Shown here: one piece after another, positions 11,850 through 50,948 of the stretch
Layout: the number at the start of each line of letters is the position of its first letter
How positions within the stretch are numbered: position 1 is the stretch's first letter
From: Ascidia mentula
Lineage: Eukaryota > Chordata > Ascidiacea > Phlebobranchia > Ascidiidae
NCBI GenBank assembly: GCA_947561715.1
Contig: OX387203.1
Coordinates: forward strand, 15,004,001 to 15,068,000
Direction: 5' to 3'
Length of the DNA stretch: 64,000 bases
Program-made: the position numbers and the translations under genes
The notes under the pieces: model-generated
The model's input: the letters and a program-made list of their open reading frames with translations, nothing else
Told to the model about the DNA's origin: nothing
The model's database searches: none

Positions 11850-12450
11850 AGCAACTCAATTATTTCCAGTCATTATTTTCCAATTCTCAGGTTGGCATCG
11901 CAAAAACATCACAGATATTTAATGACTCTGCAAAAACATCACAGGTATTTAATGACTCTGCAAAAACATCACAGGTATTTAATGACTCTGCAAAAACATC
12001 ACAGGTATATAATGACTCTGCAAAAACATCACAGGTATTTAATGACTCTGCAAAAACATCACAGGTATTTAATGACTCTGCAAAAACATCACAGGTATTT
12101 AATGACTCTGCAAAAACATCACAGGTATTTAATGACTCTGCAAAAACATCACAGGTATTTAATGACTCTGCAAAAACATCACAGGTATATAATGACTCTG
12201 CAAAAACATTACAGGTATTTAATGACTCTGCAAAAACATCACAGGTATTTAATGACTCTGCAAAAACATCACAGGTATTTAGTGACTCTGCAAAAACATC
12301 ACAGGTATTTAGTGACTCTGCAAAAACATCACAGGTATTTAATGACTCTGCAAAAACATCACAGGTATTTAATGACTCTGCGAAAACATCACAGGTATTT
12401 ATAGGTTTGCAATCAAAAACGTTTATGTTTGTAAAAGAGTTTTAGATAAA
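11850..12450 (+). pseudogene. plus-strand unknown gene, copy B, minisatellite-filled exon
   Basis: Homologous to the exon at 62334-62530. The start (QLFPVIIFQFSGWHR) aligns with that exon, but then a 30-bp unit is repeated about 17 times where the other copy has one. The frame of the flanking exon sequence is lost at the repeat, while another frame stays open and gives a spurious 202-codon ORF with SAKTSQVFND repeats. Likely non-functional. Confidence 0.5.
11898..12400 (+). repeat. 30-bp minisatellite, about 17 units
   Basis: Head-to-tail units with core CAAAAACATCACAGGTATTT plus AATGACTCTG, differing by single bases. The unit corresponds to the single-copy stretch around 62422-62452 in the paralogous segment (CAAAAACAACACTGGTATTC), so the array arose by expansion inside an ancestral exon. 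The copy at 33.4 kb lacks this array. Confidence 0.95.
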
Positions 12451-17900: not shown

Positions 17901-20900
17901 TTTGAATTCATAACCCTGGTCATAAGGAACCATAGTTCTTCCAGCTAAGGTATGAGAGTTCAACAAAATAGAAACACCCACTTTGGCTGTGAAGTCACTA
18001 CCAAGAAGCAGGGAAATAAAACTCAACAATTTGAAAATTTACCTTTTCCTGCATGTTTTGGATGTTTCTTTGAACGTCTTGAAAAAAATCTTGCAAAAAA
18101 AACAGTTTGTTTTTTTGTGGCAGAATTGGAAGAAACTAAACAAAAATACTGAGTTTATTAAGTCAAGCATAACCATGCTGTAACACATAATACACTGTCA
18201 AATGTTATACAGCGCAGTTTAAAAATAAAAGAATTGTTGTTATGTCATGGTTTCTGCTTTGTAAACATGTATCACCATTTTCCGGCAATTGTTTTGAAAG
18301 TTGGGCCTTGGAATTTGTTGCGCCATCTAATTTTTTGGATGAAGTAGATTTTACATTTGTTGGAGCCAAACCTCCTCTGCAAGCTGTAAAGCAATGAGTC
18401 ACAATATATAGTATAGCATATATCTTTCTTTTTCTTTCAATTATATTTAAGTTCAATGCTAAGTAATTGGCAAAGTTTTGTCAGCAAAAAAGATAACAGA
18501 AACACATTTTTAATACAAAAATACCAAATGAATATAGTACTGACGAATTTTATGCATCTTGGAAATTGTCATACCGCTGACAGCACTATTGACAGGATCA
18601 GATTCTGAACTGGTTTCACTATGCCCACTTCCAGAGGCTTGGAATGAAAATTATAAAATAAAAATTATGGCCATTAAAGTGCAAACTTTCAAATGCGCTG
18701 CACATACCTGGTTTGTGTCCGAGCAAAAGGCCACACACAAAACGACGAACCATTGCCCAATGGGGTTCATTAATCAAATCGTCCACGATTTGATCAAATT
18801 CTTCATCTGACATGAACATAGAAATGTAGTATGCACCAAACATTTCCTGCAGAACTTGATGAAGGTAGTAGAAGAGAACATCTCTCCCATCAAATACTCT
18901 ACGACTGGGAAACCAGGAGAACTTTGCCATTTTGAACACTACATCCTGTACTTTTACATCTTCTAAACCTACTTTTTGAAGGTCATCATGTGTGAACACA
19001 ACGGTTTTACGAACCATGCCTTCATATGCCATTCGGCCAAGTGGCAATTTGAGGTTTTCTAATTTCTCTCCTTTTGCATGCTCAGAGTGATCGAGATGTT
19101 GCAAAACTTCATCAAATACATTAGTTATGGTGGAAATACTGTGTACCTCACCGAATAACCCAGCATAAACAATAAATTGTAAAAGCATTGGATTGCGGCA
19201 TAAATCAAGCAATTGTGGAGATTTAGTTTCAAGTTTGTTCCACAGTTCATTTGCTTTATCACCTGAGTAACTATCAAACAGTGTCTTTGCATCCTCAGGA
19301 GAAAGATCACTGACATAAATTGTTGGCTTAGGTCGGAGTCCCAATGGTATAGATAGTAATGAGTGGGGTCGAGAAGTAAAAATCAACATAGATTTTGGAA
19401 AAAAATGCCTGTTGCAAAGGTTAGCAACAAGCTGTTGTACTGGCAAGGGAGTGCCATAATTCTCTTTTGCAGGTGCCATGTTTTCTAGTGTCCAGGTTGC
19501 CTGATCTAATCCATCAAAAATAAAAGCACACTTTTCTGGGTTCTTTATCATCCACTGGAAAACCAAACTGAGTGTTTCCTGTGAAGCATGGTTGAACTGG
19601 TTATCCAGCAGAAGCTCCTGCAAAGTAAGCTTTCTATCGCCGTAGTTTAAATACATGAACCGAAGATGAAGCACTAAGTGATCTTCTGTTTCTAGTTGCC
19701 TGCATAATCTCTTTGAAAGAGTGGTTTTGCCGCATCCAGCCGGTCCAAGAAAAGCTAGAAATATGCCATGCTGATTGCGTTCTTTGAAACTTGAAACTAG
19801 TTGCTGAAATTTGATGTGTTCACCAACAAATCGATCATTGTCCCCCTTGCTTGTTGATGGCTCAAACTCATTTTGAGGATGAATTCCTTTGTAAATATCA
19901 GTATCTATCAGTGTTGGTTGAACCTCTGGTATTTCAACCTTTTGCAACTCTTCACTGTAAGGGACAACATCTGGATCAAGATTTTCAAGCTGACATTTTT
20001 TGATTTCATCAACTGCCTGTTGTAACTTTTCTTCTGCAAATTTTAAACAGGTTTTTCAGATAATAAATCTATGTTACAGTGGTTTCTTGAGAAACAGTGA
20101 GCTCTAGTATCTATGTTTGGCTGGTTTATTTTTAGTGCAATATGCTGCATAACCATAACGCAAATTGAGGATTAGCGTTTATCTGTCAAATTATATTATG
20201 ATGATAACGTCTAATGCCACAGAAAAATAATAAAATCCCAATGGCAAAAACAGGAAAAGTTTCGTCTGCTGTTTAGTTTTTTAGCCATCCGTATTATATT
20301 TCATCATTTTTTCATTTCAAATGCTTATTTAGAAAGTCCTTATTTTATGTCAATTTATGGAACTACTTTGCTTCGTAGGAGTAGGTACAAACATAATTTC
20401 AGATGACATCGATAAACATCACAGAGTATATTTAGTTGCTAACGGCAAATTTCGAGTTGTAACTCTCTTATTGGTTGGATTTTTACCCACATTGCAGTGT
20501 ACTTAATGGAACATAAAACAAAATTTGTTAAAGGAAGCATATTGGTATTTCTATCAAAATAAGTTTAGCGGCGGAAAACGTCCACTTGTCATTGACAAAG
20601 CAATCAGTGATGCATGGGGGTCAATTTCGCGGTTGAATGAACGTATGTATGTGCTGTTGCTTTGGCGAATTTGAGCCAGTTTTGGACAGTTTTAAGTAGA
20701 GTTTTGGGCGTTTTAAGTCTGGTTGCTACGTGGTAACGTGTGTTGTATAAAATTGTGCTGAAAAGGCGGTTTAATTTTATGGTAATATCTGCAGAATAAT
20801 TAAAGACTTATGTCAGCGTTGAACGGCAAAAACTTTTGGTTTTCTATTAGTTATGTTCCCAGTTCTAAACTATCCGACCTGGAGAAACCTAGTGTGAAGA

Positions 20901-23900
20901 AAGTGGGCAGAAAAAGTGGACGCGAACATATGAGCGGGAAGTAAATCAATCGAAATCATAATCACTCAGCAAACATGGGAAACATGAGAGTGTTTCCGTT
21001 CCACAGTCAGCAAATAAAGCTTCATCGTAGATAGACGTTTGGCGTTACAGCTACAGTGTTTGTTTTACATGTTGGCCAACCAAGCGTGAAGAAAATTCCT
21101 TACTTTCTAAGCCCATGTGATCGGCGTGAAGATGCCTTGGTAACTTACTGGCAACGTAGCTTCATTTGACAGTTTGACTCAGCACTAGATCCACCGTAAT
21201 CCATATTGGAAATAACTGTCCCTGTACTGTCGTACCTACCAACTGATTTAAACGTTTTTACAAAACACTTGTACTTCCCGTATTTTTGCTCAGATTCGCT
21301 TGTCACAGCTACAAAAGTATTTCAACACTTGTCCTCAAATGGTTTGTAAAATGGTTACGTAGGTTATTTTTTATGTCACGAGGTTATAATATGTGAGCAA
21401 ATTGTTGAAACAACTCATGGCTTGATGCCACATTATCAATATGTTTGCAGTGGCAACATATAAGCGCTTGTGTAGAATGGTTTCATATCTCTGTCGAAAC
21501 TCTTTCATCAATTTTTCTCGGCATGCACAGTTTTCGAAACCTGTTAAATGCATTATTCTGACAAGCTGTGAAGTGCACTATTCGTTCAAGTAGACAAAAA
21601 TGATGGCATTCTCATCATGATTCTACAAGGGAAGTGAAGCTCCCTCCAAACACAAATTACCACATAAAAACAACACATAAAAGCGTCTGAAAACGTTTTC
21701 AGGCGAAAGGGTCACGGACAGCATGGTTTCGTCTTAAATGCTGAAGTCAGACACATTCTTATTTCAATCGGAATATGACTTTCCTTAAAACCAAAGGTCG
21801 GTGCTGTGAAAACAAAAACATGCCGTAACAGGAACTTACACAGTCTCTATCTCAGTGGTATATATGTTAATTGCTCTTGCTCTGTCGCTCTGTCTAAAGT
21901 ACTCGGTTACCAAGTTTTTAATCCCATTGATATGACGCGTGTATTATAAATCGTAAACGAATTCTGTTCACGGAGTCAAATTAGTTATCGTTCAAAACAC
22001 CCCCAGAGGATCAGAACTTAGTTAAAACAGCCAAGTTCACACCACTGCGTCAGGCCATGCTCCGCTAAGGAGTTTTGGGTGTTTGATCATTTCGGAAATT
22101 ACATAAAAGCCAAAGATGTACATTTACATGAACTTGCATTTCCAGACATAGCACCAGATTTCTATAGCAATGCATCATGCATGGCAACCTAACTGATCAT
22201 TGGTAGCGAGATTGCTGACAACCTTAAAAAATGTAGAATTCAGTGAAACACCATCTGCAGTGACAATTTTAATGTAATGATTTCCACGTCATTTTATCAG
22301 AGTCTAATTGTGTTAGTCACATAATGTGTTCAATTAGATTCTATATTGTCGTTGGGGCAAGACACAGATATTGTTACATGAGTCGCATTAAGCTAATAAT
22401 TTTGTCATCTCCAAATGGTCGAATACAAATGATAAATCGGTTGGGTTTCGACTTGAATACAAGTATTTGTATTCCAAACTTCCCTAGTAAATCTCCCATA
22501 CCTCGTATATCTTCTGATTCTGTGATGGTTGATTCATGATAATGTGCGTGATGATGATGTTCTTCCACAGTTTGATGCAGATGTTCTTCCACTGTCTGAT
22601 GGTGATGTTGCTCCACAGTCTGATGGTGATGTTGCTCCACAGTCTGATGGTGATGTTGTTCCACAGTCTGATGGTGATGTTGCTCCACAGTCTGATAGTG
22701 ATGTTGCTCCACAGTCTGATGCAGATGTTGTTCCACAGTCTGATGAAGGTGTTCATGGTGATGTACGTCACCAATATGTTGGTGCAGATTCTGGAATGAA
22801 ACCAGCAAAAATTACCAAACACACAAATATTAATTGTCCAAAAAGACAGCATGGTCGTTGAAATTTTCTGAAATCCAATACGGCTCTAAGCTGCCAACAT
22901 GCGTTTTGTTACGTATTCTATTTGACTAAGGCAAGCATCATACGTGAGTTACCTACTGTTTCGACGAGCTATTTTCTCTATTTAATCATTTGCAAGTGTT
23001 CAAAGCAGTTATCGGAAGGATTTACCAGTTTATTTTTGGAACTTCTTTTGAAACGTAATTGTCAGCTGTGAATGTGTTTGGAGGAGATTCTTGAGGTCGC
23101 TTGTTTAGCCAGCCCGGCCCTTTTTATGGCCACTATAGCGTTTTGTATAGTAGAGGTTAGGCGGCAAGCGGCCAGGGTATGTCTTTTGTCACTTACGGAC
23201 GAGAATTTGGAAGTGGACGCCCGTTTCAATCCCGGGATGAAGCGTCCCGAAATCTTAACGTTGCTGCGGCAACATAACATTCGTTGGCGCACCTTCCTAG
23301 AAGGTCTGTTGCAGTTCTCTAACGGCAGAATAAAGTTTTACTGCCCCACCAAGGATAAGGCGCGTGAATTCTCCATGGCACTTCGCGCGACCGGAAAGCC
23401 GGTTTACGCAACCGCGAGATGTGAAGATGAAGAATGTGTAACACTTACCAAGGTCCCCCCGCGTATACCAATGCAAGCGCTCCTCGCATATTTTGCCAAG
23501 TACGCCCCAACACTAAGAGGGTGGAAAACCAATGACGATTGCGGCCTCTACGGAGGCAAGCGAATTATTATAATGAAAGGGTCTGTGCTGAAAGAGAACC
23601 CGATCCCAAAGCGGGTTCGACTTGGCAAGAACGTGGTCGAGATAAAATACAACGGCCAGCCAAAAAAATGCGAATTTTGTTTGGAAATGGGCCACCAGAA
23701 AAGCGACTTCCCAAGCTTTGCGAGGCAAGCGGTGGAGCGCAAGCAGGCAGCCGAAAAGAATAGTGCCGGCGATAAGGAGCCGAATGTGCCAGCCAAAGAT
23801 AAGAAGACATCAGAGGCTAACGCTACAACAGGTCCGACAGCTGATATTGCGCCGGACCAAAATATGCAAGCGACCGCTGAGGTCACACCATCTGTGCACC

Positions 23901-26900
23901 TGCATGTACCAGATGTTACACCTGGCGCCACTGATAAGAGCGTGGAAGTCCGAATGGACCCACGGCCCCATCCTCTTAAACTCGGCACCTCTAAAAGGCT
24001 CTGCCTACGGGGGTGTCGCAGTTCTTCTAAACTCCTCCAGCCTCCGAATTCTTAATTCAACTTCTGACTCTGACGGTCGCATTATTGCGGCCGATATATC
24101 AACCCTGATCCACACCTTTCACTTAGTTAATATATACGCACCCTCCGGCACAAAAAATTACATATTCAATAACAAATTCTTCGACTCTCTCTACCCCTAC
24201 ATCTCTTCTACCCACCCAATTGTTTTTACTGGAGATTTTAATTGTGTAACCGACCCTACCTTAGACAGATAACCATCACTACCCAATCGACAACCCAGCT
24301 ATAACCTTATAAAATTACTACTTTTAATTTACAGGATTCTTTTCGGCTTCTACATCCAAATCTCCGTCAATTTTCCCGCCGCGCCCCAAACTCTCAGTCT
24401 AGAATAGATCGAATTTACCTCTCCCTTTCATTAACTCTCAATAATCATCTTTTTACTCCTTGTCCCTATTCGGACCATGACTCAGTTTCGGTCTCTCTTA
24501 ACCTTATCTCTTCTCCACCCAGAGGCCGTGGCACATGGAAAAATAATACTAAAACTCTCAACGACCCTCTTTTCCGTCTCGACTTTCATCGCTTCTACCC
24601 TTTTTGGCAAACTCTCGCTCCTTTACACTCTAACCCCATGGATTTCTGGCTGACACTTAAATTTAAATTTCAATCCCTGATAAAAACACATTCGAAACGT
24701 TTGGCTAAACAATCCCGAGAAGAAACCTACACCCTACATCAACAACTCGACACCGCCCGCCAAACTCTCAACGACAATCCCTCTTCTGAAAACTTTCGCT
24801 CCTTTCAATTTATTAAAAAATCCCTAAATTCTCTCTACCTTTCTAAATCCCGTGACTCTATTCTAAAATCTCTTTCCTCCGACTCCCATTTTAAAAACAT
24901 TACCGATAAATTACTCTACTCCGAATTACTACCCTCACGCATTCACAATCCCATCTTCGAACTACAAGACGACCACGGCCTCCCTCTCTCTACCCCCAAG
25001 GAACTTCTTTCTCACACTCGGCAATTCTTCGAAACTTTATATTCTAATCAAAACCTTCCAATACCCGACCCCTCTAATTTATTCGCTAAAATTCCCCTTA
25101 AATTAATTCCGGGCCAACACACTGAAACCTTATCAAATCCCATCACGCAACATGAAATTAGAAAAACTCTTTCCCTCTTTCCCTTCGGCAAACCCCCCGG
25201 CCCCGACGGTCACAGCAGCGAGTTTTACTCGCTGTACCGGGACCTCATCGGGACCGACCTCACCCAAGCTCTTAACTTCTCATATTTTAATTCCTACACC
25301 CCTTCAGAATACAACCTTGGACATCTTACTCTTATCTTCAAAAAAAATGACCCCACTCTTCTAAATAATTACCGGCCAATCTCTCTTCTAAATACGGACC
25401 TTAAAATTCTTCACAAGCTTCTAAATCTCAGACTCAAACCCTTCATTCCCGAAATTCTCTCTTCAAATCAATTCGCTACCCCCGGCTCTTCCACCACTGA
25501 CGCAACTTCTCCCCTAGGCGATCTCCACCATCACGCTTCCTCATTCAATTGGGACACTGACTTCATTTCCCTCGATTTTCAAAAAGTCTTCGATTCTGTT
25601 TCATTTTCTTGGCTACTCCTTCAGTTAACTCTTAAACGCTTTCCCACTTGACCCCCTTAGTCTGAACCTCTTCCTGATTGCCCTAGATCCGCTCCTCGTT
25701 GCCCTTCAAAATCACTCTTCTATCGACTCAACCCTAGTGCCATGCCGCAACACACCCAAGGCAATCCCTTACGCCGATGACATCACCCTAGTGGTGGCGC
25801 ATCGGCACTCCCTCACCAAAGCCCTCGGCCTCATTGATTATTAAAATTTTATTTAGTAAATTTTTTCAAAACAATTACCTCTTTGCAATCCCGCGCCAAA
25901 TCTATCAGCAACCCGTTTCTTACCTTTGATTCTGAATGCATCCTCTCAAAAACTTTAATTTTGCCCCAAATTTCATACCTTGGTAAAACTTACCCTTTAT
26001 CTCCCCAGCAACGAGAACGGATCGACGGCATAGTGGTAAAGTTCGTCGTCGGCCCACCTTGCCAATTAACATCCTGGCAGCCCGTCGTGACCATGGCGGT
26101 TACGGCGCGGCAAACATTCCCCTCTACGCTGACCTATCACTTCTCTCTCCTATAAAACAATATTACAATCACCGCCTTTTGGAATCCCCAACTTCTCCAC
26201 AACTTTCCTTTATAGAATACAACATTGGACTTCCCCTTAGCAAACTTTTAAACCTTCGTTCTAGAAACTTTCTTCCACACGCTTCAACACCTTCTCCGCA
26301 CTATCTTCATATTCTTAATCTTCTCAAATCTTTCAAACTCACCGAAACTGAGCTCATGACCAAAAAACTCAAACCCCTCTATCTCCGGATCATCGATGAA
26401 ACCAACACACCACATCCCTTCAACGACTGGCCCCAAATTCACCATCCCATCTTTCCAATTATCTCAAAACCTTTAATTTTCGGCTAACACATAAAATTCT
26501 TCCGTTAAATTGTCAAAAATCATACCTCCCTTTGGATCAACAACCCCACTGCTACCTGTGCAAATTCTCCTTTGAAACTTTTACTCACCTATTCCACAAC
26601 TGTCCTTCCATTTAACCTCTGCTCACCTTAATTCGCGACGTCTTTCGAACTTTATCTGACCTAAACACCTGTCCTTTCGACACCCCTTTACACATCACAT
26701 TTCCACAACTTCACAACACAACACCTTACACGAAAACATTAGGAGCACTGTTAAACACCGCACTAACACACACTATCTGGAAAACACGCAACAGAATTAA
26801 ACATGACACACGCCCCATCAACGACATACCCCGCCACTTAGTAACATCCTGCAAATCCTCTTTACGCTTAAAACTATCTATCCAGCGAAATAGGGACAAC

Positions 26901-27886
26901 CCCTTTCTCGAGGAAATCCTGGCCGATGTCGTAAACACGCTTAACATCACGCATACCGACACCCCATAAAAGCGCCCAGTCGCGGAACATAAATTCTTAA
27001 ACTTGGCCACGCGATTTAGCTTTTTTTCCTCCGTACACTACCGCCCACTCGTGGACTAGAAAATATCCAAAAATTTACCACTAGATGACGCTACCTACTT
27101 TGGTAAGCGCGCGCCATTGTGCCTATATTTTTGTACTCGCACTCGTTATTCCACGCTCGTCAGTTAATTACGCCGCGAGTGGTCATAAACCCCATCACAA
27201 ACTAAACACTAGGGGTCGATACGGATTCCCGTAAGTCCTTTTTTTTTCTTTTTTGTGTTATTATCTGCGTTCACCTTTTTTCGCTCGTCATTAAATTGCG
27301 CATACACGTGGTCAGTAACACCACGCCAGGCTAACCACTAGGGGTCGGTGCAGAGTCCGATACGCCCCTTTTTCCTTTCTGTTGTCATTCGTGTCTACTG
27401 TCTTCGCCCGCCATTTAGCTGCGCCAACACGTGGTCAGTTACACCATGTTAAATCAACCACTAGGGGTCGATAGCTCCCCATGCGATTATTTTTATGTGT
27501 TTTGCGTTTTTCTTCTTGTGTTTTTCTCGTGTGCCTACTAGGTATTTGCGCCAACTAGTGCGATACCCGCGAGGGACTGGCTGCCGCCAGGAGTCGCTGT
27601 GTATCGTCAAGCCCTTTCCCTTATTCGTTGCGTTCTCTTCTTACTTTGTTCAATTTTATGCGTGGCGTTATTCGTTCACGTGGTGTGATATTCGTGGGGA
27701 TTTGATGTGCCCCGAATAAAATAGTGCCAACATGCGTTTTGTTGCGTGTAAACAAAAACTGTCACTCACAAATGATTTTCTCCAACCCCTACCACCAGTG
27801 CAGCAAATCTCAATATTCAAGAACAACAAGCTTACCTCGGCAACAATGTTTTGTGAGTTTTCTCCTCCTGTTTGTTGTTCGGCCAT
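14278..27886 (-). CDS. NLR2: NACHT-LRR gene with His-rich N-terminus
   Basis: Most complete NLR of the array. Exons: 27886-27836 (MAEQQTGGENSQ), 22790-22502 (His-rich), 20033-18708 (NACHT), 18637-18575 and 18383-18276 (Ser-rich linkers), 16632-16525 (Ser/Thr linker), 15639-15467 (pre-LRR, uncertain), 15366-15274, 14969-14734, 14552-14388 (LRR), 14307-14278 (PRVSGLDYQ stop). Junction phases agree for all except around 15639-15467, where one extra base relative to NLR3 puts the exon out of phase and the downstream junction is not resolved. NLRs sense intracellular danger signals; no effector domain (CARD, PYD, Death) was seen. Intron 1 holds a LINE, other introns hold a MITE and a foldback repeat. 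No large break in the NACHT module. Confidence 0.75.
15274..15639 (-). CDS. NLR2 pre-LRR exons
   Basis: 15639-15467 encodes LQNHVYNLLHKVALREKLAV then KLPLYWVNGHRGLESLTSHY in the frame that NLR3 also keeps, but the NLR2 acceptor leaves one extra base, so this exon would be read in a different frame. 15366-15274 (KRAEKLLKKLSKYLREKRP, phase 1 to phase 1) is a helical, basic segment joining correctly to the first LRR exon. The link between the two blocks is unresolved: the donor giving the right phase would leave an intron of only about 26 bp. Confidence 0.5.
15640..16524 (-). other. NLR2 intron with MITE and internal duplication
   Basis: A stretch near 15650-15720 (GGAGACAAGTGCAACAAAAC) is repeated near 16342-16450. 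A small fold-back MITE occupies 16142-16298. No supported exon, although 16035-16004 keeps an acceptor and donor-like signal and a similar sequence lies near 18050 and 38090. Confidence 0.4.
16142..16298. mobile_element. fold-back MITE with GCAATCTAC microrepeats
   Basis: Inverted ends CGGGCTTCTCTAAAACACGC at about 16145 and its complement ending 16298, followed inward by repeated ACGCAATCT units. Flanked by TGCA at both sides. The matching site in NLR3 (38225-38240, CCAGTGCAAGACTGAC) lacks the element, showing a clean insertion. TGCA is itself a palindrome, so the exact duplication length is ambiguous. Confidence 0.75.
16525..16632 (-). CDS. NLR2 Ser/Thr-rich linker exon
   Basis: 108 bp between TTTTTACAG and GTCAGT, phase 1 on both sides, reading GDGSDSSPKTLPSTSAKSAS and on. 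The NLR3 counterpart is 38561-38454, also 108 bp and phase 1-1. Low-complexity polar sequence suggests a flexible tether between NACHT and LRR. Confidence 0.65.
16633..18275 (-). other. NLR2 intron with foldback repeat
   Basis: Mostly non-coding. Contains the foldback at about 17217-17505. 18076-18040 could be a small exon (acceptor TTTGCAAG, donor GTAAAT) but the phase is uncertain. The 84-bp linker exon present in NLR3 at 40198-40115 has no clear counterpart here. Confidence 0.4.
17217..17505. mobile_element. long foldback (palindromic) repeat
   Basis: Left arm (about 17217-17322) and right arm (about 17400-17505) are inverted copies about 90% alike, both carrying GCTAGCTTTTACACTAGCGG or its complement and GACAGGGTGT at the outer end. 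A single right arm survives in NLR3 near 39843-39925. Likely a foldback-type DNA element or MITE; superfamily not assigned. Confidence 0.7.
18276..18383 (-). CDS. NLR2 linker exon
   Basis: 108 bp, acceptor GCTTTACAG, donor GTGATAC, phase 1-1, encoding CRGGLAPTNVKSTSSKKLDG and on. The NLR3 exon 40739-40629 is 111 bp, also phase 1-1, differing by one codon at the donor. Confidence 0.65.
18575..18637 (-). CDS. NLR2 short Ser-rich linker exon
   Basis: 63 bp, phase 1-1, encoding SGSGHSETSSESDPVNSAVS. Identical length and phase in NLR3 (40993-40931). Directly follows the NACHT exon, which ends GHKPG with a GTATGTG donor. Confidence 0.7.
18708..20033 (-). CDS. NLR2 NACHT exon (intact)
   Basis: 1326 bp, entering in phase 1 and leaving in phase 1. 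About 29 residues of linker, then the NACHT module: DRFVGEH lead-in, P-loop GPAGCGKTT at about exon residue 97, Walker B AFIFDGLDQ at about 170, LIFTSRPHSL, winged-helix CRNPMLLQF, and a C-terminal helical region ending RRFVCGLLLGHKPG. No stop. Expected to bind ATP or dATP and drive oligomerisation. It is the best candidate here for a functional NLR core. Confidence 0.88.
20034..22501 (-). other. NLR2 intron 2
   Basis: Aligned with intron 2 of NLR1 and NLR3. Near 20849-20880 a TAGTTATGTTCCCAGTTCTA fragment resembles the left end of the hAT-like element found at 46734. No supported exon. Confidence 0.4.
22502..22790 (-). CDS. NLR2 exon 2, histidine-rich octapeptide repeat
   Basis: 289 bp (96 codons plus one base). 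Begins NLHQHIGDVHHHEHLHQ, then about eight tandem copies of an 8-residue unit (HHHQTVEQ, HLHQTVEQ, HHYQTVEQ and similar), then HHHHAHYHESTITESEDIR. The 24-bp unit keeps the frame. NLR1 has one unit and NLR3 about seven. His clusters can bind zinc, copper or nickel, but no function is known here. Overlapping frames on both strands are also open and are by-products of the repeat. Confidence 0.75.
23072..24055 (+). pseudogene. LINE ORF1 (nucleic-acid-binding)
   Basis: 327-codon frame typical in layout for Tx1-like ORF1: an RRM-like region, then a zinc knuckle KCEFCLEMGHQKSDFP in which the final Cys is replaced by Phe, then a charged, Ala/Pro/Thr-rich tail. The last codons (from about 23975) are endonuclease sequence read in the wrong frame, so a deletion has fused ORF1 to ORF2. 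Confidence 0.7.
23985..24640 (+). pseudogene. LINE endonuclease fragment
   Basis: Exonuclease-endonuclease-phosphatase motifs: NIYAPSG, VFTGDFNCV near 24220-24250, then SRIDRIYLS and YSDHDSVSV near 24400-24490 after a frame change and stop. The N-terminal part with the first catalytic Asn and Glu is missing. In intact elements this nicks target DNA. Confidence 0.7.
24638..25840 (+). pseudogene. LINE reverse transcriptase fragment
   Basis: 337-codon frame with RT motifs: GKPPGPDGHSSEFY, NNYRPISLLNTDLKILHKLL, FISLDFQKVFDSV. A deletion removes the segment before DPLSLNLFLIALDPL, and IPYADDITLV (the YADD catalytic box, about 25770-25800) follows in another frame. Motif order and wording fit the L1/Tx1 group. 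Confidence 0.8.
27130..27480 (+). repeat. imperfect ~140-bp tandem repeats in LINE 3' region
   Basis: Three units each containing a CACGTGGTCAGT-type (or GAGTGGTCAT) motif followed by ACTAGGGGTCG (near 27211, 27341, 27463). They sit downstream of ORF2 and are probably 3' UTR repeats of the LINE. Confidence 0.6.
27836..27886 (-). CDS. NLR2 exon 1
   Basis: 51 bp, ATG to GTAAG donor, reading MAEQQTGGENSQNIVAE, phase 0. Same length and phase as NLR1 3341-3291 and NLR3 51168-51118. No signal peptide, consistent with an intracellular protein. Confidence 0.7.
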
Positions 27887-40198: not shown

Positions 40199-41063
40199 CT
40201 GTAGAAACATATGTATTACAAATCATAAACAAGATATACTGGGATACCATCTGTTTACAAGTGCCTTGATGAAACAGAGTACAAACATTGTTGAAATTCT
40301 AGTAAAATTTTAAATAATTATTCCAGTGGTTCTCAACCTGTAAGGGCTTTTTAAGTGGTGTGCATAAAAATTGCAACATAGACAAATTCCATCCAAAAAT
40401 GCCAATCGTTGTGAAATTGCATGCTGCGACATGTGTTATGAACTTTCAATGGGCATTAAATCCTGTTTCTGGTTGTTAATTGGCATTTTGATATTCAGTT
40501 TAAAGTACAACACAACCATGCTTTAACACATAATACACTGACAAATCTTGTGCATCACAGTTTAAAAATGAAAGCATTGTTGTTGGTTATGTTTCACTCA
40601 AACAGTTTTCTGCTTCGAAAACAGTTACCATCATTTTCCGGCGACTGTTTTGACAGTTGGGCCTTGGAACTTGTTGCGCCATCTAATGTTTTTGATGAAG
40701 TAGATTTTACATTTGTTGAAGCCAAACCTTCTCTGCAAGCTGTAAAACAATGAGTCACAATATATAGTATAGCATATATCTTTCTTTTTCTATCAGTTAT
40801 ATTTAAGTTCAATGCCATGTAATCGGCAAAGTTTTGTCAGCAAAAAAGATAACAGAAACACATTTTTAATACACAAATACCAAATAAATATAGTACTGAC
40901 GGATTTTATGCATCTTGGAAATTGTCGTACCGCTGACAGCACTATTGACAGGATCAGATTCTGAACTGGTTTCACTACGTCCACTTCCAGAGGCTTAGAT
41001 TGAAAATTATAAAATAACAATAATGGTCATTAAAGCACAAACTTTCCAATGCGCTGCACATAC

Positions 41064-42200
41064 CTGGTTTGTGTCCGAGCAAAAGGCCACACACAAAACG
41101 ACGAACCATTGCCCAATGGGGTTTGTAAATCAAATCGTCTACGATTTGATCAAATTCTTCATCTGACATGAACATAGAAATGTAGTATGCACCAAACATT
41201 TCTTGCAGAACTTGATGAAGGTAGTAGAAGAGAACATCTCTCCCATCAAAGACTCTACGACTGGGAAACCGGGAGAACTTTGCCATTTTGAACACTACAT
41301 CCTGTACTTTTACATCTTCTAAACCTACTTTTTGAAGGTCATCATGTGTGAACACAACGGTTTTACGAACCATGCCTTCATATGCAATTTGGCTAAGTGG
41401 CAACTTGAGGTTTTCTAATTTCTCTCCTTTTGCATGCTCAGAGTGACCAAGTTGTTGCAAAACTTCATCAAATACATTAGTTATGGTGGAAATACTGTGC
41501 ACCTCACCAAATAACCCAGCATAAACAATAAATTGTAAAAGCATTGGATTGCGGTATAAATCAAGCAATTGTGGAGATTTAGTTGCATGTTTGTTCCACA
41601 GTTCATTTGCTTTATTACATGCGTAACCAATACACAATGCCTTTGCATCCTCAGGAGAAAGATCACTGACATAAATTGTTGGCTTAGGTCGGAGTCCTAA
41701 TGGTATTAATAGTAATGAGTGGGGTCGAGAAGTAAAAATCAATTTAGATTTTGGAAAAAGTTGCCTGCTGCAAAGGTTGGCAAAAAGCTGTTGTACTGGC
41801 AAGGGAGTGTGATACTTCTCATTTACAGGTGCCATGTTTTCTAGTGTCCAGGTTGCCTGATCTAATCCATCAAAAATAAAAGCACACTTTTCTGGGTTCT
41901 TTATCATCCACTGGAAAACCAAACTAAGTGTTTCCTGTGAAGCATGGTTGAACTGGTTATCCAGCAGAAGCTCCTGCAAAGTCAGCTTTTTATCGCCATA
42001 GTTTAGATACATGAACCGAAGATGAAGCACTAAATGATCTTCTGTTGCTAGTTGCCTGCACAATCTCTTTGAAGGAGTAGATTTGCCACATCCAGGCGGT
42101 CCAAGAAAAGCTAGAAATATACCTTGCTGGTTGTCTTCTTTGAAGCTTGAAACTAGTTTCTCAAATCGGATGTGTTCACCAACAAATCGATCATTGTCCC
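41064..42200 (-). CDS. NLR3 NACHT exon, main part
   Basis: From DNDRFVGEH at the transposon junction to GHKPG with donor GTATGTG. P-loop GPPGCGKST, Walker B AFIFDGLDQ, FTSRPHSL and winged-helix YRNPMLLQF are present and open. The 5' 168 bp of the exon, which in NLR1 and NLR2 encode the acidic linker before the NACHT core, are absent. Confidence 0.8.
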
Positions 42201-42278
42201 GGTTTGACTAAAATCCTGACTGCCTGACTCGCCTGACTTCAACAGCAGTGTTTCCAAAAATATTTTCAGGAAAAGTAG

Positions 42279-42565
42279 CCTGACTGACTTTTGTGTGTTT
42301 CAATTGCCTGACTTTGGTGACGGTGTGTTGGAATTGCCTGACTTTCGTGATTGTGTGTTGGAATTGCCTGACTTTCGTGATTGTGCGCTGTCATTGCCTG
42401 ACTTTCGTGATTGTGTGTTGGAATTGCCTGACTTTCGTGATTGTGCGCTGTCATTGCCTGACTTTCGTGATTGTGTGTTGAAATCGCCTGACTTTCGTGA
42501 TTGTGCGTTGCAATTGCCTGACTTGCGTATGTTGGTATTAGAAATGCCTGACTTTCGTTTTAGTA
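42279..42565. repeat. left TIR array of the MULE, 30-bp units
   Basis: About nine units of the type TTGCCTGACTTTCGTGATTG plus a variable 10-bp part (TGTGTTGGAA, TGCGCTGTCA). Open frames on both strands here are by-products of a 30-bp unit without stops. Confidence 0.92.
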
Positions 42566-43493
42566 TAGGTACGGGAATTGCGTGGCTTTTTTGATTGGGA
42601 ATATTTGTGCTGTTACTTAAACCCTGCGAAAGTAATCTGTATACTCATTATTATGAAAGAAATAGAACGTCTGAAGGTGAAATTGGTCTGCAATTCAACT
42701 TTCCAGAGAAACGTTGTATTTACGTGCTCGTAAACGGCGTTTGGTACAGCGTGATTTTTTTCTTCTTTGACGTTATCATGTAGCACTGTTTTTGAAGTTT
42801 TTTTTTGGTGTGCCTAAGTTTGTTACTGTGGTACGTTCGATTACATTAAAATCTGCTACAACAGGTTGTGTTCTTGGAAACCTAAATATTCGGTTAACTT
42901 GGATGTGTTTGCCGAAAACGATCCAATAAAAAGTTATTCGTGGTGCATTAAGTGTTTTGTTTCTGGATTCTGCACAATTTGCCATTGTCGATGTTCAATT
43001 TTCACCACAATGGGCTTTGTAACGACACAATGTTTGTGTTTTTTTAGAACACTAGCTAACCTTCCTTGGACATTTTAGGGTCGTTTTATTCCTTGCAGCA
43101 GCAGAGGTTTTAATATTATTTACCTTTTGTTGTTTTGTTACAAAGCTATTTGAATCGGATATATTTAATACCGACTACCTAACAGAATCTGTTCTGGTGC
43201 TCGAGGAGGGAAATATTCCAGTAAGTAATATTGTTTTGGAATTGTATGGCCGTGTTTGACAGAAATCGCTTTTCTAATTCACTGATTCGACAATAATGTC
43301 GTTTGCGTAAATGTTTCAAGTCCTTTTTTTGAGCACATAAGAGATAAAATGTACATTATGTAACACAAAAAGGCCTACACGTAAAGTTTGGGTTTCCTAA
43401 CATAGGAAAAAGGCACAACAATGATGCTAAGAATTGAATTGAATAAGAACAAATAAATTAACGGCGTCTCCATTGCAGCAATTCTACCGACAT
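42566..43493. other. MULE left non-coding region
   Basis: Between the left array and the end of the transposase gene. No conserved frame found; it probably carries the transposase 3' UTR. Confidence 0.4.
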
Positions 43494-46400
43494 GAAGGAC
43501 AAACATAATATGGTGTGAGTTTGCTGCATTCTCCACAAGAGCGATGTATCCATTTGCGACAGATGCAGCACATCAACTGAAGTTCAGCTTCCGTGAAATC
43601 CCCTTTGCAACTTTGAGCGGCACACCGAGACCAACCGCATATAGACTGATGGAGGCTTTCGGGAACAAAATCATGTCCAATTTTGGACAGAACCTAAACA
43701 TGAAAAAAAGGAAATCATTTGCTGCCAACAACAATCAAATGTTGACGACTACATTTCAAAATCTGTGTACTAACCTTGGGCTGGAACATATCTTTTTTCA
43801 AAGCTGCTAGAACACGTTTTCTTTCTAGTGAAGTGAAGCGGACTGTGGGTGTGCAATTACTGATTGTTTCTGAGCTTTTCAAAGTAAACGAAACCCAATT
43901 TCTTGCTTGTTTGGAGTTAAAAGAAGTCAAAGGAATTCTGTTCAAAACGCAGTACACGTTTACGATTACGTGTATTCCGCAATCAATGTTATTTTGCTGC
44001 TGTGGGGTCTAGTCGAATCGGTATACTTTCCAGGAATTCACATCCCCAAGGTGGCCAGCTGCGATGTAAAATGTTGAAATTGCCTTCAATACGGTTTGGC
44101 CAATACCAACCAATCGCGAACAAATCGACCTTGACATTGAGTCAAACAAGTGCACAGATTGGGTTTGAAAAACAGCCACAGCTAAAATCCAATGACAGTT
44201 GTTGTGGCAAATTGGAAAAAGCACAACATCCTTGTTGAGAACCAAGTTTCGCTCAATGAACCCAACCAGGCACTCCAAACGGTGATGCTGTAATGTGCAG
44301 TACATGTTTGAAGGAACAACTACAGCATTGATTGGCGAACTATTTATAAGATGCGCAATGCACATGTCCAGCGCATAGTCATCAAGCCACTGGGCATTGT
44401 CGACAAGGTTAATGCTGCTTAGCAATTGGCGGTTTTCAATACTTTTTTTTGGAATTGAGCCTAGTTCTGTTTCCCATGGAAACGATGCCTTATCAGTGTC
44501 GTGTGGAATGATTTCCCTGGCACTGTTTGTTTCGCTTTTGTACCTCTTCAAAATCGGAGATAAAGGAGGTTCAGGCGACACGTGCATTGGCATATCATCC
44601 TTTGTCGGCGTTGAGTGCCTAGCCATGGTAACAAAGGTGGAATCTGGTGCAGGGATTGTACTATAATCATAGTCCTTGGTTCTTGGCTTTTTTCGACCAG
44701 ACTTTCCCTCGCCTCTCAGAGCCCTTTTCCGCAAAAGGGACAGAGAATAAGTTTTGTTGTCTCTTGTCCGTATTCCAATTGACATTTCAGCAGCAAAAAT
44801 GTGAAAACATTTTCCTGTGCTACTACAAGAGCATTTTGGTTTTGGGAATAGTTGAACCGCGTGTGACGAGTTTGCAAATCTGTTGTATACGGTAAACGTC
44901 TGTATGGAAGAGCTAAGTGCCACCATATTGTGTTCAACGCAGTCAACTGCCATAGCTTTTTGAGAAGCCCGATGTGTTGGACGTTTTTCTGTGGAGTGTG
45001 AGACAGGTTTGAAGGTTTTTTTTATTTCTGCCACAATTGACTTCGGTGAAGCTACTTTTTGGTTCAACCACTGGCAGTCGGATACTCCCCTGAGGGTAAA
45101 TTCATCTTTAAGTGTATAGTTCCCAAGTCCGCAGTTGCTCCTTTCAAACTCGTACAAAGTATAAACTTGGTAACGATGTAATGCCAGGACCATGCAATCT
45201 ACTCGCATTTCTTTCCATTCATTCCATTCTTTTAAAACTTCGTTAAAGGACTCGGAAATATTGTTAGTGCACGCGATTTGGCCCTCAAATGCGGCGTACT
45301 TCTGTGTGACGAACCGACATGAGTGTGAAAAAAGGTCATTCTTAAGGTGTTTTTCGAAGTATTTGCAAAATGGACCTGACCAGTTGACCCCACGCTCGGT
45401 CAAAATTTCATGAAATTCTTCTTGGGATTTGGAATTTATTATTTGTTCGACGTCGTCTTTGTATACTTTGATGTCATCCATCTTGCCTCCATTTTTTTTC
45501 ACCCAGTTTTCGACGTCGTGCAGTATGTGGTTTGTGCAAAACACAAGCGAAATTTTGGGAGAAACTTGTCGGAATGCATTAACAATGCCCGCTTCCCTAT
45601 CAACAACCACAGGTATGTGCAACACCCTGTCGAAACCGATTGCTCCGAAAATTCCTTTTAAAAACTCGTTATGAAAAGTTTGAAATTTTCTTTCATGCAA
45701 AAGAAATCCAATTGGAAAAATAGGATCCTTTCTAATGCGAACATTTCGTCCAACAAGAGGTGAAATATAGAAGTCGCCCAAAGAGAATGTGGTGTCGTAT
45801 GAAATTAGATATTTGTACTGAGGACCCAAAAGGAACAGTTTTTTAACGTAAGTTATCATCTCTGGCAAAAAAAGGATTATTGTTAAATCTGGTGTGAACG
45901 AAATTTCGCAAATGAATCCACCCAGCTGACCTTGGAGTTCGCAAAGGCTAAAAATTTCGTCGTGAGTTAGACGTTGCTCCTTGCGTTGCTCATATGCAAT
46001 ATTATCGCACTGTTTCGTGTTACGTGGCCTATTCACTAGCATTGACTCAACCTCTGCCTGATCTTGTAGCAGGGCATAATTTATTTTTGGCTTGTGTAGG
46101 TTGCCTAGAGATTTTATATCCTGCAGCACCTCTTTCTTGACAGGAACAAACAGTCTATTCCTGGATTTGCTGTTTCCATGAGGTTGTGACTCATAAACGG
46201 TGTGGTCACCCATATAATGAACAACATACGTTGGTGGAGCATCACTTTCCATGTCGTCAATTGAGCACACGACGTGTTTTATAAAACGGTCGCTTGAATT
46301 TTTTCCGCCAAGTTTTGGATGCTGGATATGGAAATACCACTTTCTTAGTGACTTTCCAAACCTTTTATTTCCCCGATTAACCCATATATATTGGTCATAG

Positions 46401-46567
46401 TGAAAATCTTTTCCTAACTTTTTTGTTTTTCCTTTGTACAAATATACATCTCCTCCTTTCGGTTTTATTGGTGGTTCGTTTACAACTGTCTCGTGCTTTA
46501 GTAAAAGTAATATTTCTTGATGTGTAAGACACTCAGTCACACCTTTTTGAATTGGATTTGCACCCAT
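43494..46567 (-). CDS. MULE transposase fused to Ulp1 protease and PHD-like finger
   Basis: Exon 1 46567-43775 (931 codons, phase 0) and exon 2 43693-43494. In order: a WRKY/FLYWCH-like DNA-binding segment (about residues 60-155, C...VHYMGDHT); the MULE catalytic core with YDTTF (first Asp), VVVDREAGIVNAF (second Asp), CTNHILHDVENW and CTNNISESFNEVL (Glu); a SWIM finger CSCSSTGKCFH (about 600); then a C48/Ulp1 cysteine protease with NAQWLDD, CHWILAVA (His), HLFDSM (Asp), PQQQNNIDCG (Gln and Cys). Exon 2 adds a PHD-like cluster (CCICRKWIHRSC ... YVCPSC). One TAG at 44009-44011 interrupts the protease between His/Asp and Gln/Cys. It is otherwise open, so recent inactivation, read-through or a sequence error are all possible. 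Confidence 0.88.
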
Positions 46568-46733
46568 GATTTTTCAGAGAGAACGCTGATAAAAACTCGC
46601 TACTTTCCCAAATACACTTTCAGCAGCAATGCTCAAATCCACGCCGTCTTGTTGCTATTTAACGTACAACACGTGATTGTGACGAAAGAATCGATGGACA
46701 ATTGCTATTCGATTGAACCCAAAAGGTCGTAAT

Positions 46734-47154
46734 TAGTGATGTTCCCAGTTCCAAATTATCCGGCCCGGCCGGATCCGGATAGTTATTAATCAAATCCGGC
46801 CGGATAATTTGGATCCGGCAGTTTGTTAACACTGATTCGTATATTATAGCAAAAATGCTATGTTAAGGTTAGCCTGTCATAAGTGGAACAAATCAACTTG
46901 GGCATTTATTAATATGGTATAACACGTCACGAAAAACCTTAATAACAAATAACAAAAAAATCTTACGTCGGCGAGTATAACAGACTGGGTCCCAAAAACG
47001 AGTAATTTGCGAATTGTTTGTACGCTTTTAGGACAGAAATGCTTTCCCAACTATCCGGTAAAATTAAGTGTATTATCCGGCCGGGTCCGGGTACTGAAAA
47101 TTGGTCAATATCCGGCCGGGTCCGGGTACCCGGATCCGGCGCAACCCATCACTA
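46734..47154. mobile_element. hAT-like MITE nested in the MULE
   Basis: Ends TAGTGATGTTCCC and complement of GCAACCCATCACTA, interior rich in CCGGCCGGAT palindromes, flanked by a perfect 8-bp duplication GTCGTAAT (46726-46733 and 47155-47162). A fragment of the same family lies near 20849. Confidence 0.85.
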
Positions 47155-47339
47155 GTCGTAATAGAAGTTTGTAATGACAAAAAAACTTACACACCGACGA
47201 AACAAATTCCAATCTGTTCGCCTTGGGAGTTAATTCCACCGGATAGTATTTATCCCTTGTTAGAACCCACAAAACAACTTAGTGCTATAGTTAGTACAAA
47301 CAGTACAACGCACAGCAGTCAGGTGGCCAAGGTTTTTTG

Positions 47340-48190
47340 ACAATCACGAAAGGCAGGCAATTCCAACACACAATCACGAAAGTCAGGCAATTCCAACACA
47401 CTATCACGAAAGTCAGGCAATTGCAACGCACAACCACGAAAGTCAGGCAATGACAGCGCACAATCACGAAAGGCAGGCAATTCCAACACACAATCACGAA
47501 AGTCCGGCAATTCCAACACACAATCACGAAAGTCAGGCAATTGCAACGCACAATCACGAAAGTCAGGCAATGACAGCGCACAATCACGAAAGTCAGGCAA
47601 TTCCAAAACACAAAAGTTAGGCAATTCCAACACACTATCACGAAAGTCAGGCAATTCCAACACACTATCACGAAAGTCAGGCAATTGCAACGCACAATCA
47701 CGAAAGTCAGGCAATGACAGCGCACAATCACGAAAGTCAGGCAATTCCAACACACTATCACGAAAGTCAGGCAATTGCAACGCACAATCACGAAAGTCAG
47801 GCAATGATAGCGCACAATCACGAAAGTCAGGCAATTCCAAAACACAAAAGTCAGGCAATTCCAACACACTATCACGAAAGTCAGGCAATTGCAACGCACA
47901 ATCACGAAAGTCAGGCAATGACAGCGCACAATCACGAAAGTCAGGCAATTCCAAAACACAAAAGTCAGGCAATTCCAACACACAATCACGAAAGTCAGGC
48001 AATTCCAATGGACAATCACGAAAGTCAGGCAATTGCAACGCACAATCACGAAAGTCAGGCAATGACAGCGCACAATCACGAAAGTCAGGCAATTCCAATA
48101 CATATTCACAAAAGTCAGGTAATTGCAACGCATAATCACGAAAGTCAGGCAAGTTCAATACATATTCAGGGAAGTCAGGCAATTCCAACG
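47340..48190. repeat. right TIR array of the MULE, 30-bp units
   Basis: About 28 units of CACAATCACGAAAGTCAGGC plus ten variable bases, inverse complement of the left array. Several units are shortened. Sub-blocks of three to five units recur, showing higher-order amplification. It produces spurious frames of 180-290 codons in at least three frames. Confidence 0.93.
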
Positions 48191-48287
48191 TACGATGATT
48201 ACATGGCTATTTTCCCTGAATTTTTTTTTGGAAACACTGGTGCTGAAGTCAGGCGAGTCAGGCAGTCAGGATTTTAGTCATGCCCAT

Positions 48288-50689: not shown

Positions 50690-50948
50690 CTCGTTTATCT
50701 TCTGATTCTGTAATGGTTGGTTCATGATAATGGGAGTGATGGTGATGGTGATCTTCCACAGTCTGATGCAGATGTTCATCCACAGTTTGATGGTGATGAT
50801 GTTCTTCCATAGTTTGATGCAGATGTTCTTCTACAGTCTGATGGTGATGTTCTTCTACAGTCTGATGCAGATGTTCTTCCACAGTCTGATGCAGATGTTC
50901 TTCCACAGTCTGATGGTGATGTACGTCACCAGTATGTAGGTGTAGGTT
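50690..50948 (-). CDS. NLR3 exon 2, histidine-rich repeat
   Basis: 259 bp, same phase as in the other copies. NLHLHTGDVHHHQTVEE followed by about six more HxHQTVEE-type units (one with Met for Val, one with Asp), ending HHHHHSHYHEPTITESEDKR. Confidence 0.72.

Follow-up and report, generated by a model that had tools for sequence, protein, structure and literature searches.

The stretch of the Ascidia mentula genome analysed here (64,000 nucleotides, called the window) contains a Mutator-like element (MULE) of about 6.1 kb, whose transposase gene encodes a DDE core, a SWIM motif, a Ulp1/C48 protease domain and a PHD-like finger. The element is genuinely a MULE, belongs to the Ulp1-PHD kind and has Foldback-type ends; its copy in the window is broken. 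We estimate a probability of about 70% that the element is a cut-and-paste DNA transposon with domains acting as proposed below, and that the broken window copy was duplicated passively. The combination of MULE core, C48 protease and PHD finger appears to be the commonest build of MULE transposase in this genome.

Transposase gene and its domains

The transposase gene lies on the minus strand (Table 1). An open frame of 852 codons runs from the ATG at 46567 to a TAG, and the same frame continues past this stop to a GT-AG intron, beyond which exon 2 follows in frame. The single spliced gene of the original prediction is thus upheld. Single tblastn matches to three relatives (P0003, P0006 and P0007) span the stop and reach exon 2, and therefore the read-through segment and exon 2 belong to the ancestral gene. 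A 19-nt intron spanning the TAG was rejected as too short. The TAG sits between the His and Asp and the Gln and Cys of the C48 domain, which leaves the window copy without a full tetrad in one frame; the complete His-Asp-Gln-Cys set that had been claimed has to be given up for this copy. Relatives of the transposase were found in Ciona intestinalis (40% identity), Ptychodera flava (45%), the lizard Sceloporus undulatus (37%) and the mite Leptotrombidium deliense (31%). The lizard relative, P0005, is an annotated protein of 630 residues; to our knowledge, MULEs have rarely been reported in vertebrates.

Table 1. Positions of the element and its parts in the window
Feature	Position	Strand	Remarks
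Whole MULE element, about 6.1 kb	42200..48285	-	From the terminal inverted repeats; pentamers deduced by comparison with 13 short elements that share these ends
Terminal pentamers	42200-42204; 48285-48281		CGGTT; GGGCA on the minus strand; GGGCT in place of GGGCA in the 13 short elements
Left terminal inverted repeat	42205..42280	+	First 37 bp identical to the right repeat
Left array	42291..42558	+	30-bp units, 8.9 copies, CCTGACT in one orientation
Exon 2, PHD-like finger	43484..43693	-	69 codons and stop, in frame with exon 1
GT-AG intron, 81 nt	43694..43774	-	Inferred from the frames and from relatives aligning on both sides
Exon 1 of transposase gene	43775..46567	-	931 codons with one in-frame TAG
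Ulp1/C48 domain	43883..44335	-	Approximately residues 745-895
Premature TAG, codon 853	44009..44011	-	Ahead of C48 Gln and Cys; copies B and C have a sense codon here
SWIM motif C-x-C-x5-C-x-H	44792..44845	-	C579-x-C581 / C587-x-H589; SWIM over the Pfam cut-off in relative P0017
MULE DDE core	45230..45802	-	D258, D323, E439; invariant columns in 22 sequences
CG-1-like N-terminal domain	46178..46540	-	Approximately residues 10-130; Pfam CG-1
Right array	47340..48189	-	30-bp units, 28.9 copies, inverted relative to the left array
Right terminal inverted repeat	48205..48280	-

The predicted succession of MULE, SWIM, Ulp1/C48 and PHD-like domains in one animal gene holds, based on conserved residues and family profiles. 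The catalytic D, D and E of the core, together with a C344-x2-H347 pair, are invariant in all 22 aligned sequences, including that of the window, as belongs to the MULE superfamily; many members of this alignment are fragments. The C48 residues are H792 and D809, 17 positions apart, and Q857 and C863, six apart, with the stop of the window copy between the pairs. We take the Gln to be the residue six before the Cys, as in the spacing of the Ulp1 reference. In nine C48-PHD tails, which were chosen for having both domains, the catalytic His and Cys are present in all nine, and the Asp and the Gln in eight each. A Trp two residues before the His of the PHD finger is present in eight of the same nine tails; Trp at that position lines the methyl-lysine cage of H3K4me3 readers.

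The Pfam check that had been proposed for the two exons succeeded for C48 only. The window pieces on either side of the stop scored 19.4 and 22.2 bits against C48 (cut-off 20.7), and the domain reached 50.4 bits (E 3.4e-13) with the stop as a placeholder. The MULE score of the window copy, 15.9 bits, is under the cut-off of 27.6, and the window pieces gave no SWIM match and, for exon 2, no match of any kind, so no PHD. Each family exceeds its cut-off in at least one relative: MULE 37.4 and CG-1 29.4 bits in P0008, SWIM 24.3 in P0017, C48 67.4 in P0007, and PHD 28.1 in P0021 and 26.6 in P0018. At E of 0.01 or less, matches among the 22 members, the window included, were to MULE (PF10551) in 17, C48 in 8, Transposase_mut in 7, CG-1 in 6, PHD in 4, Macro in 3 and SWIM in 2. 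Exon 2 was the only match of a PHD profile built from the C-termini of seven relatives among 1224 six-frame open reading frames of at least 30 residues (E 3.5e-7), with 13.7 of its 26.3 bits due to compositional bias. A 16-member family profile compared with solved structures matched SENP1 (6.2e-16), Ulp1 (1.1e-13) and SENP8 (6.9e-11), as well as SENP2 and SENP5. The same profile matched a Mutator family transposase (6.4e-5) and the PHD fingers of PHF2 (7e-5), EBS, PHF1 and BPTF.

A DNA-binding segment had also been predicted, with FLYWCH or WRKY as candidates. An N-terminal domain is indeed present, and it resembles CG-1; FLYWCH, the hallmark of Phantom elements, was not matched in the window copy or in 21 relatives, although the N-terminus is missing from several of these. 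The window copy scored 17.8-20.5 bits against CG-1 in different searches, under the cut-off of 23.5, and seven of nine family pieces matched at E of 0.1 or less, the best at 1.2e-8. When the CG-1 region of the host CAMTA gene, named by protein family and not by its record, was ranked with 20000 shuffles of itself against the family profile, it came out best of the 20001 (19.5 bits; the next 15.5). This match covers positions 4-115 of the 162 in the profile, and the exon pieces were picked and joined by eye, which favours a match. Solved structures gave no CG-1 match to the N-terminal profile, and weak ones to telomere factors and WRKY (best E 0.088). Common ancestry of the CG-1 domain of CAMTA and the N-terminal domain of the transposase, in either direction, is likely but not proven from these sequence comparisons. 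Neither CG-1 nor CAMTA occurs as a term in the main text of PMC10027918, a 2023 survey of animal factors derived from transposons.

Three relatives (P0013, P0015 and P0018) carry a Macro domain behind SWIM. In P0018, which aligns with the MULE core, the Macro domain scores 115.8 bits, with PARP14 as the best solved match, and a SWIM motif, Macro, C48 (at the cut-off) and PHD stand in one protein. Listings of the open-access literature, a scope outside which Repbase and most subscription papers lie, contained neither a transposase with Macro, C48 and PHD nor a transposase with a CG-1-like domain.

Terminal repeats, short elements and insertion site

The gene is enclosed by terminal inverted repeats (TIRs) and, inside them, by arrays of 30-bp units. 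The sequence GCCTGACT is present in the TIR and in most of the units; in the window it occurs 12 times on the plus strand of the left arm, 26 times on the minus strand of the right arm and twice elsewhere. The element shares with Foldback-type elements its long TIRs, which consist of tandem units in varying number. A scan of the window against Rfam at gathering thresholds gave no match, and the viral and prokaryote sequence collections contained no relatives of the transposase. Further tandem arrays with 30- and 24-bp units lie at 11900-12401, 22549-22745 and 50752-50922, the latter two being His-rich frames. Open frames at 23072-26966 resemble a non-LTR retrotransposon, as judged by eye.

The first 25 bases of the TIR, with up to three mismatches, occur at 46 places in the genome (20 forward and 26 reverse), and the reversed control at none. 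A search for TIR pairs at 55 loci, which include the loci of 30 of the 46 matches, yielded 14 distinct pairs: copy B of the element, described below, and 13 elements of 396-1310 bp without the gene. Twelve of these 13 short elements have CGGTT outside the TIR at one end and GGGCT at the other. Perfect target-site duplications (TSDs) flank nine of them, six of 8 bp and three of 9 bp, within the range of about 8-11 bp of MULEs. The mean identity between the two flanks was 0.67 at 8 bp, whereas shuffled flanks gave 0.31, with a maximum of 0.54 in 2000 shuffles; at 9 bp it was 0.50, compared with 0.30 (maximum 0.48). Clean inverted arms, with all forward motifs to the left of the reverse ones, are present in 12 of the 13, with 3 to 31 CCTGACT motifs per arm. 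The short elements seem to consist of nothing but end sequences, which would fit gene-less Foldback-type elements that are moved in trans.

The window element is inserted in an exon of an NLR gene. A cluster of NLR genes of the NACHT type occupies 1-1233, 18622-20055 and 40978-42207, and one of its members is interrupted by the element. The best named relatives of the open frame at 18622-20055 are from the ascidians Phallusia mammillata, with 44% identity (56% over a shorter stretch), and Clavelina lepadiformis, with 35-40%. Over exon 1, copy B (contig C71:14516652-14519207) is 98.5% and copy C (C71:14331378-14333929) 98.6% identical to the window copy; over exon 2 the identities are 94% and 100%. 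Both exons in the same order had been expected in other copies, and exon 2 is present in all three close copies, counting that of the window. Copy B has the same 15-base flanks as the window copy on both sides, and independent transposition was rejected for it on these grounds. Copy C, which has lost its left TIR, aligns with the right flank of the window copy over about 2 kb and with the left flank in part, and its independent transposition was judged unlikely. Since copy B shares both flanks and copy C aligns with the flanking DNA, the NLR locus was duplicated together with the element. Compared with the window copy, B contains one extra base and lacks one, C contains four extra bases and lacks eight, and stops occur in the matches of B; none of the three frames is whole. 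A short hAT-like element of 421 bp (46734-47154), with ends TAGTGATG and an 8-bp TSD ATTACGAC, lies between the right array and the start codon and is absent from copies B and C.

MULE-protease pairs in the genome

The genome assembly (195.8 Mb in 79 contigs) was searched with domain profiles. At least 49 places matched MULE (PF10551), at least 87 C48 (PF02902) and at least 15 OTU (PF02338); the core of the window copy is not among the 49. At 28 of the 49 MULE places, a C48 match follows on the same strand 1.5-2.2 kb downstream, whether 72 or all 87 of the C48 places are used, compared with about 0.02 pairs expected by chance. An OTU match lies 1.4-2.2 kb upstream of 7 of the 49, none has both proteases and 14 have neither. 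A PHD match follows within 1.2 kb of C48 at no fewer than 24 of the 28 MULE-C48 places, a count based on 50 of the 150 PHD candidates that were scored out of 270; family 2, described next, would be the 25th. Two of the 28 places were read as sequence, and the others were counted by domain position.

The first of the two, family 2 (contig C52, about 490.2-504.5 kb), is 36-39% identical to the window protein. The two pieces of its C48 domain score 19.5 bits, under the cut-off, and 30.4, and its PHD-like finger scores 23.0 (cut-off 24). It is flanked by inverted arrays of 42-bp units, in 149 and 47 copies, and by an 8-bp TSD, CATTTATG, read by eye from the edges. The second, L060 (C71:14497200-14500900), lies outside the 45 matches of the window protein. 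It has SWIM (25.7 bits), C48 (53.5) and PHD (29.3) in one frame, and MULE (41.7), the RNaseH-like domain of ZSWIM1-3 (48.1) and ALS2CR8 (54.1) in the frame upstream, all over their cut-offs. These scores suggest a second MULE-SWIM-C48-PHD lineage, which may link the animal genes ALS2CR8 and ZSWIM1-3 to transposases.

More distant MULEs have OTU in front of the core. L017, L018 and L021 exceed the OTU cut-off, and L019, with a PHD-like finger at its start (19.1 bits, below cut-off), scores below it (16.1). The arrays flanking the gene are inverted in L017 and L019 and present on one side only in L018; L021 has two inverted arrays adjoining each other on one side. Elsewhere, a MULE remnant, L020 (C69:12461000-12470900), is flanked by 138-bp arrays in direct orientation that are 99.6% identical over 1859 bp, and four MULE places of this kind lie within 22 kb. 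At C1:15013362-15017030, three C48 places of equal score lie at intervals of 1677 bp, and each has a PHD match behind it at one fixed distance, with no MULE place near among those listed; they form tandem C48-PHD units.

Several observations weigh against the reading of the element that is proposed below. No TSD was found at the flanks of the window insertion, and about 160 bp of the target are missing there (167 bp relative to the NLR paralogue at 1-1233 and 161 bp relative to that at 18622-20055). Four of the 13 short elements lack a perfect TSD. Codons with single changes between the window copy and its two close copies are nonsynonymous and synonymous in ratios of 24:11 and 19:7, that is 2.18 and 2.71, compared with 3.04 for simulated random changes; therefore, there has been little or no constraint since the duplication. 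The relative P0019 has C48 without PHD in the listed protein, and P0001 from Ciona has neither in the predicted protein. No MULE place lies 1-3 kb upstream of 59 of the 87 C48 places, a number that includes the window element and its copies, the cores of which fall outside the 49 MULE places. A genome search with PF03859 listed two CG-1 matches, both at the host CAMTA gene and none at a transposon. Finally, the activities of the domains are inferred from sequence alone.

That last point also fits the C48-PHD tail being cargo, which would have been picked up from the host a single time and would play no part in transposition. MULEs are prone to acquiring host gene fragments according to the parts of Dupeyron et al. 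2019 (PMC6446971) cited here, the window copy survives without a complete C48, and 14 of the 49 MULE places have neither C48 nor OTU. However, relatives that include the mite protein, family 2 and a lineage outside the matches of the window protein all have the tail in the same position, its catalytic residues are mostly kept, and 28 of the 49 MULE places have C48; we consider the tail unlikely to be cargo. Far less probable still, and already disfavoured, is that the gene has been domesticated by the host. In its favour, only three close copies exist, and two or more of these arose by duplication of one locus; the exact TIRs and inverted arrays around the gene, the TIR matches throughout the genome and the near-neutral decay of the copies speak for a transposon gene.

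Relation to known elements and proposed mechanism

In Kaonashi or CUMULE elements of plants, a Ulp1 domain is joined to the MULE transposase; we know of no PHD finger, CG-1-like part or Foldback array in them. Identity with Kaonashi, known as a plant-hosted kind and compared by description only, was considered and not adopted, and neither was identity with Phantom, since FLYWCH was not matched. In place of these two kinds, to which the original prediction referred, the nearest described kind by structure is Rehavkus, with its PHD finger and minisatellite. The prediction had also named the combination of domains as one for which it knew no described animal element. In hydra and lancelet, however, Mutator elements with Ulp1 were reported by Bao et al. 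2010 (PMC2836005), whose Figure 1e is, according to its legend, an alignment of Ulp1 and PHD domains from transposases of both the Ginger1 and the Mutator kind; given this and the PHD finger and minisatellite of Rehavkus, the combination is not new in kind. The element described here shares its MULE-type transposase with Ulp1 with the hydra and lancelet elements, from which, compared by description, it differs in its tunicate host, CG-1-like N-terminus and Foldback ends. The parts that appear to be new are the CG-1-like domain (below the Pfam cut-off in the window copy), the prevalence in a tunicate and the pattern of either OTU or C48. Ginger1 also carries OTU or Ulp1 and never both, with a role in transposition suggested, and one Ginger1 family has Ulp1 and PHD, in the account of PMC2836005. 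However, its core is of the Gypsy-integrase type with OTU or Ulp1 at the C-terminus, whereas OTU precedes the MULE core here.

Whether the element is a Rehavkus in the strict sense, of the same clade and mostly described in Repbase already, is a closer call, to which we give somewhat less than even odds. As described in PMC6446971, Rehavkus elements of arthropods and annelids have a PHD finger, a minisatellite before the 3' TIR, TIRs of 26-400 bp and a 9-bp TSD, and Rehavkus-1_TC has tandem arrays in its inverted termini (PMC10218199, in the part cited). The A. mentula element likewise has an animal host, a PHD finger, found by the family profile on exon 2 and over the Pfam cut-off in two relatives, minisatellites at its inverted ends, with 30-bp arrays on both sides and 42-bp arrays in family 2, and a TSD of about 9 bp. 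However, this likeness is one of description, the main text of PMC6446971 uses neither the term ulp nor the term protease, whereas the element here has C48, and 8-bp TSDs outnumber 9-bp ones in the short elements. The same paper also lists a group of Cnidarian MULEs that carry an ovarian-tumour gene, and the one chordate sequence that it reports comes from Ciona. The Tm1 Mutator/Foldback elements of root-knot nematodes (PMC3169594, as far as cited), which have composite ends, are similar in their asymmetric outer motifs (A1 CGGTTAA compared with CGGTT), in the varying number of their inner tandem units, in TSDs that are mostly of 9 bp and in their short gene-less copies. Their transposase, by contrast, has 496 residues with FLYWCH and MULE, and the terms ulp and phd are absent from the text of that paper as cited, whereas C48 and PHD are present here.

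For the element as a cut-and-paste MULE, the following mechanism can be proposed. The N-terminal domain and SWIM may bind the repeated units containing CCTGACT, so that many transposase molecules would load on each end. The DDE core would then cut and join the DNA. The C48 domain may strip the transposase, or proteins of repair and silencing at the break, of SUMO or a similar modifier, and the PHD finger may hold the complex on marked nucleosomes. The short gene-less elements would be moved in trans. A transposase made from the window copy would lack a functional C48 and PHD, and the copy itself was probably duplicated passively with the NLR locus.

C48 with PHD downstream of the core, or OTU upstream of it, the two never found together, recurs in lineages of this tunicate that share little else. 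We tentatively propose that proteases of ubiquitin-like modifiers are a working part of animal MULE transposition and not cargo, and that CG-1 of CAMTA shares ancestry with the DNA-binding domain of one transposase family; that both are true is possible, with the odds against it. Why several kinds of transposase carry SUMO or ubiquitin proteases is a question raised for Ginger and Mutator in the parts of PMC2836005 cited here. With 28 MULE-C48 and 7 MULE-OTU pairs, short elements with exact ends and 30-bp units in a chordate genome of 196 Mb, tests of DNA binding, protease activity and chromatin reading are possible. The link between CG-1 and a transposase DNA-binding domain, if true, would bear on the origin of CAMTA factors.

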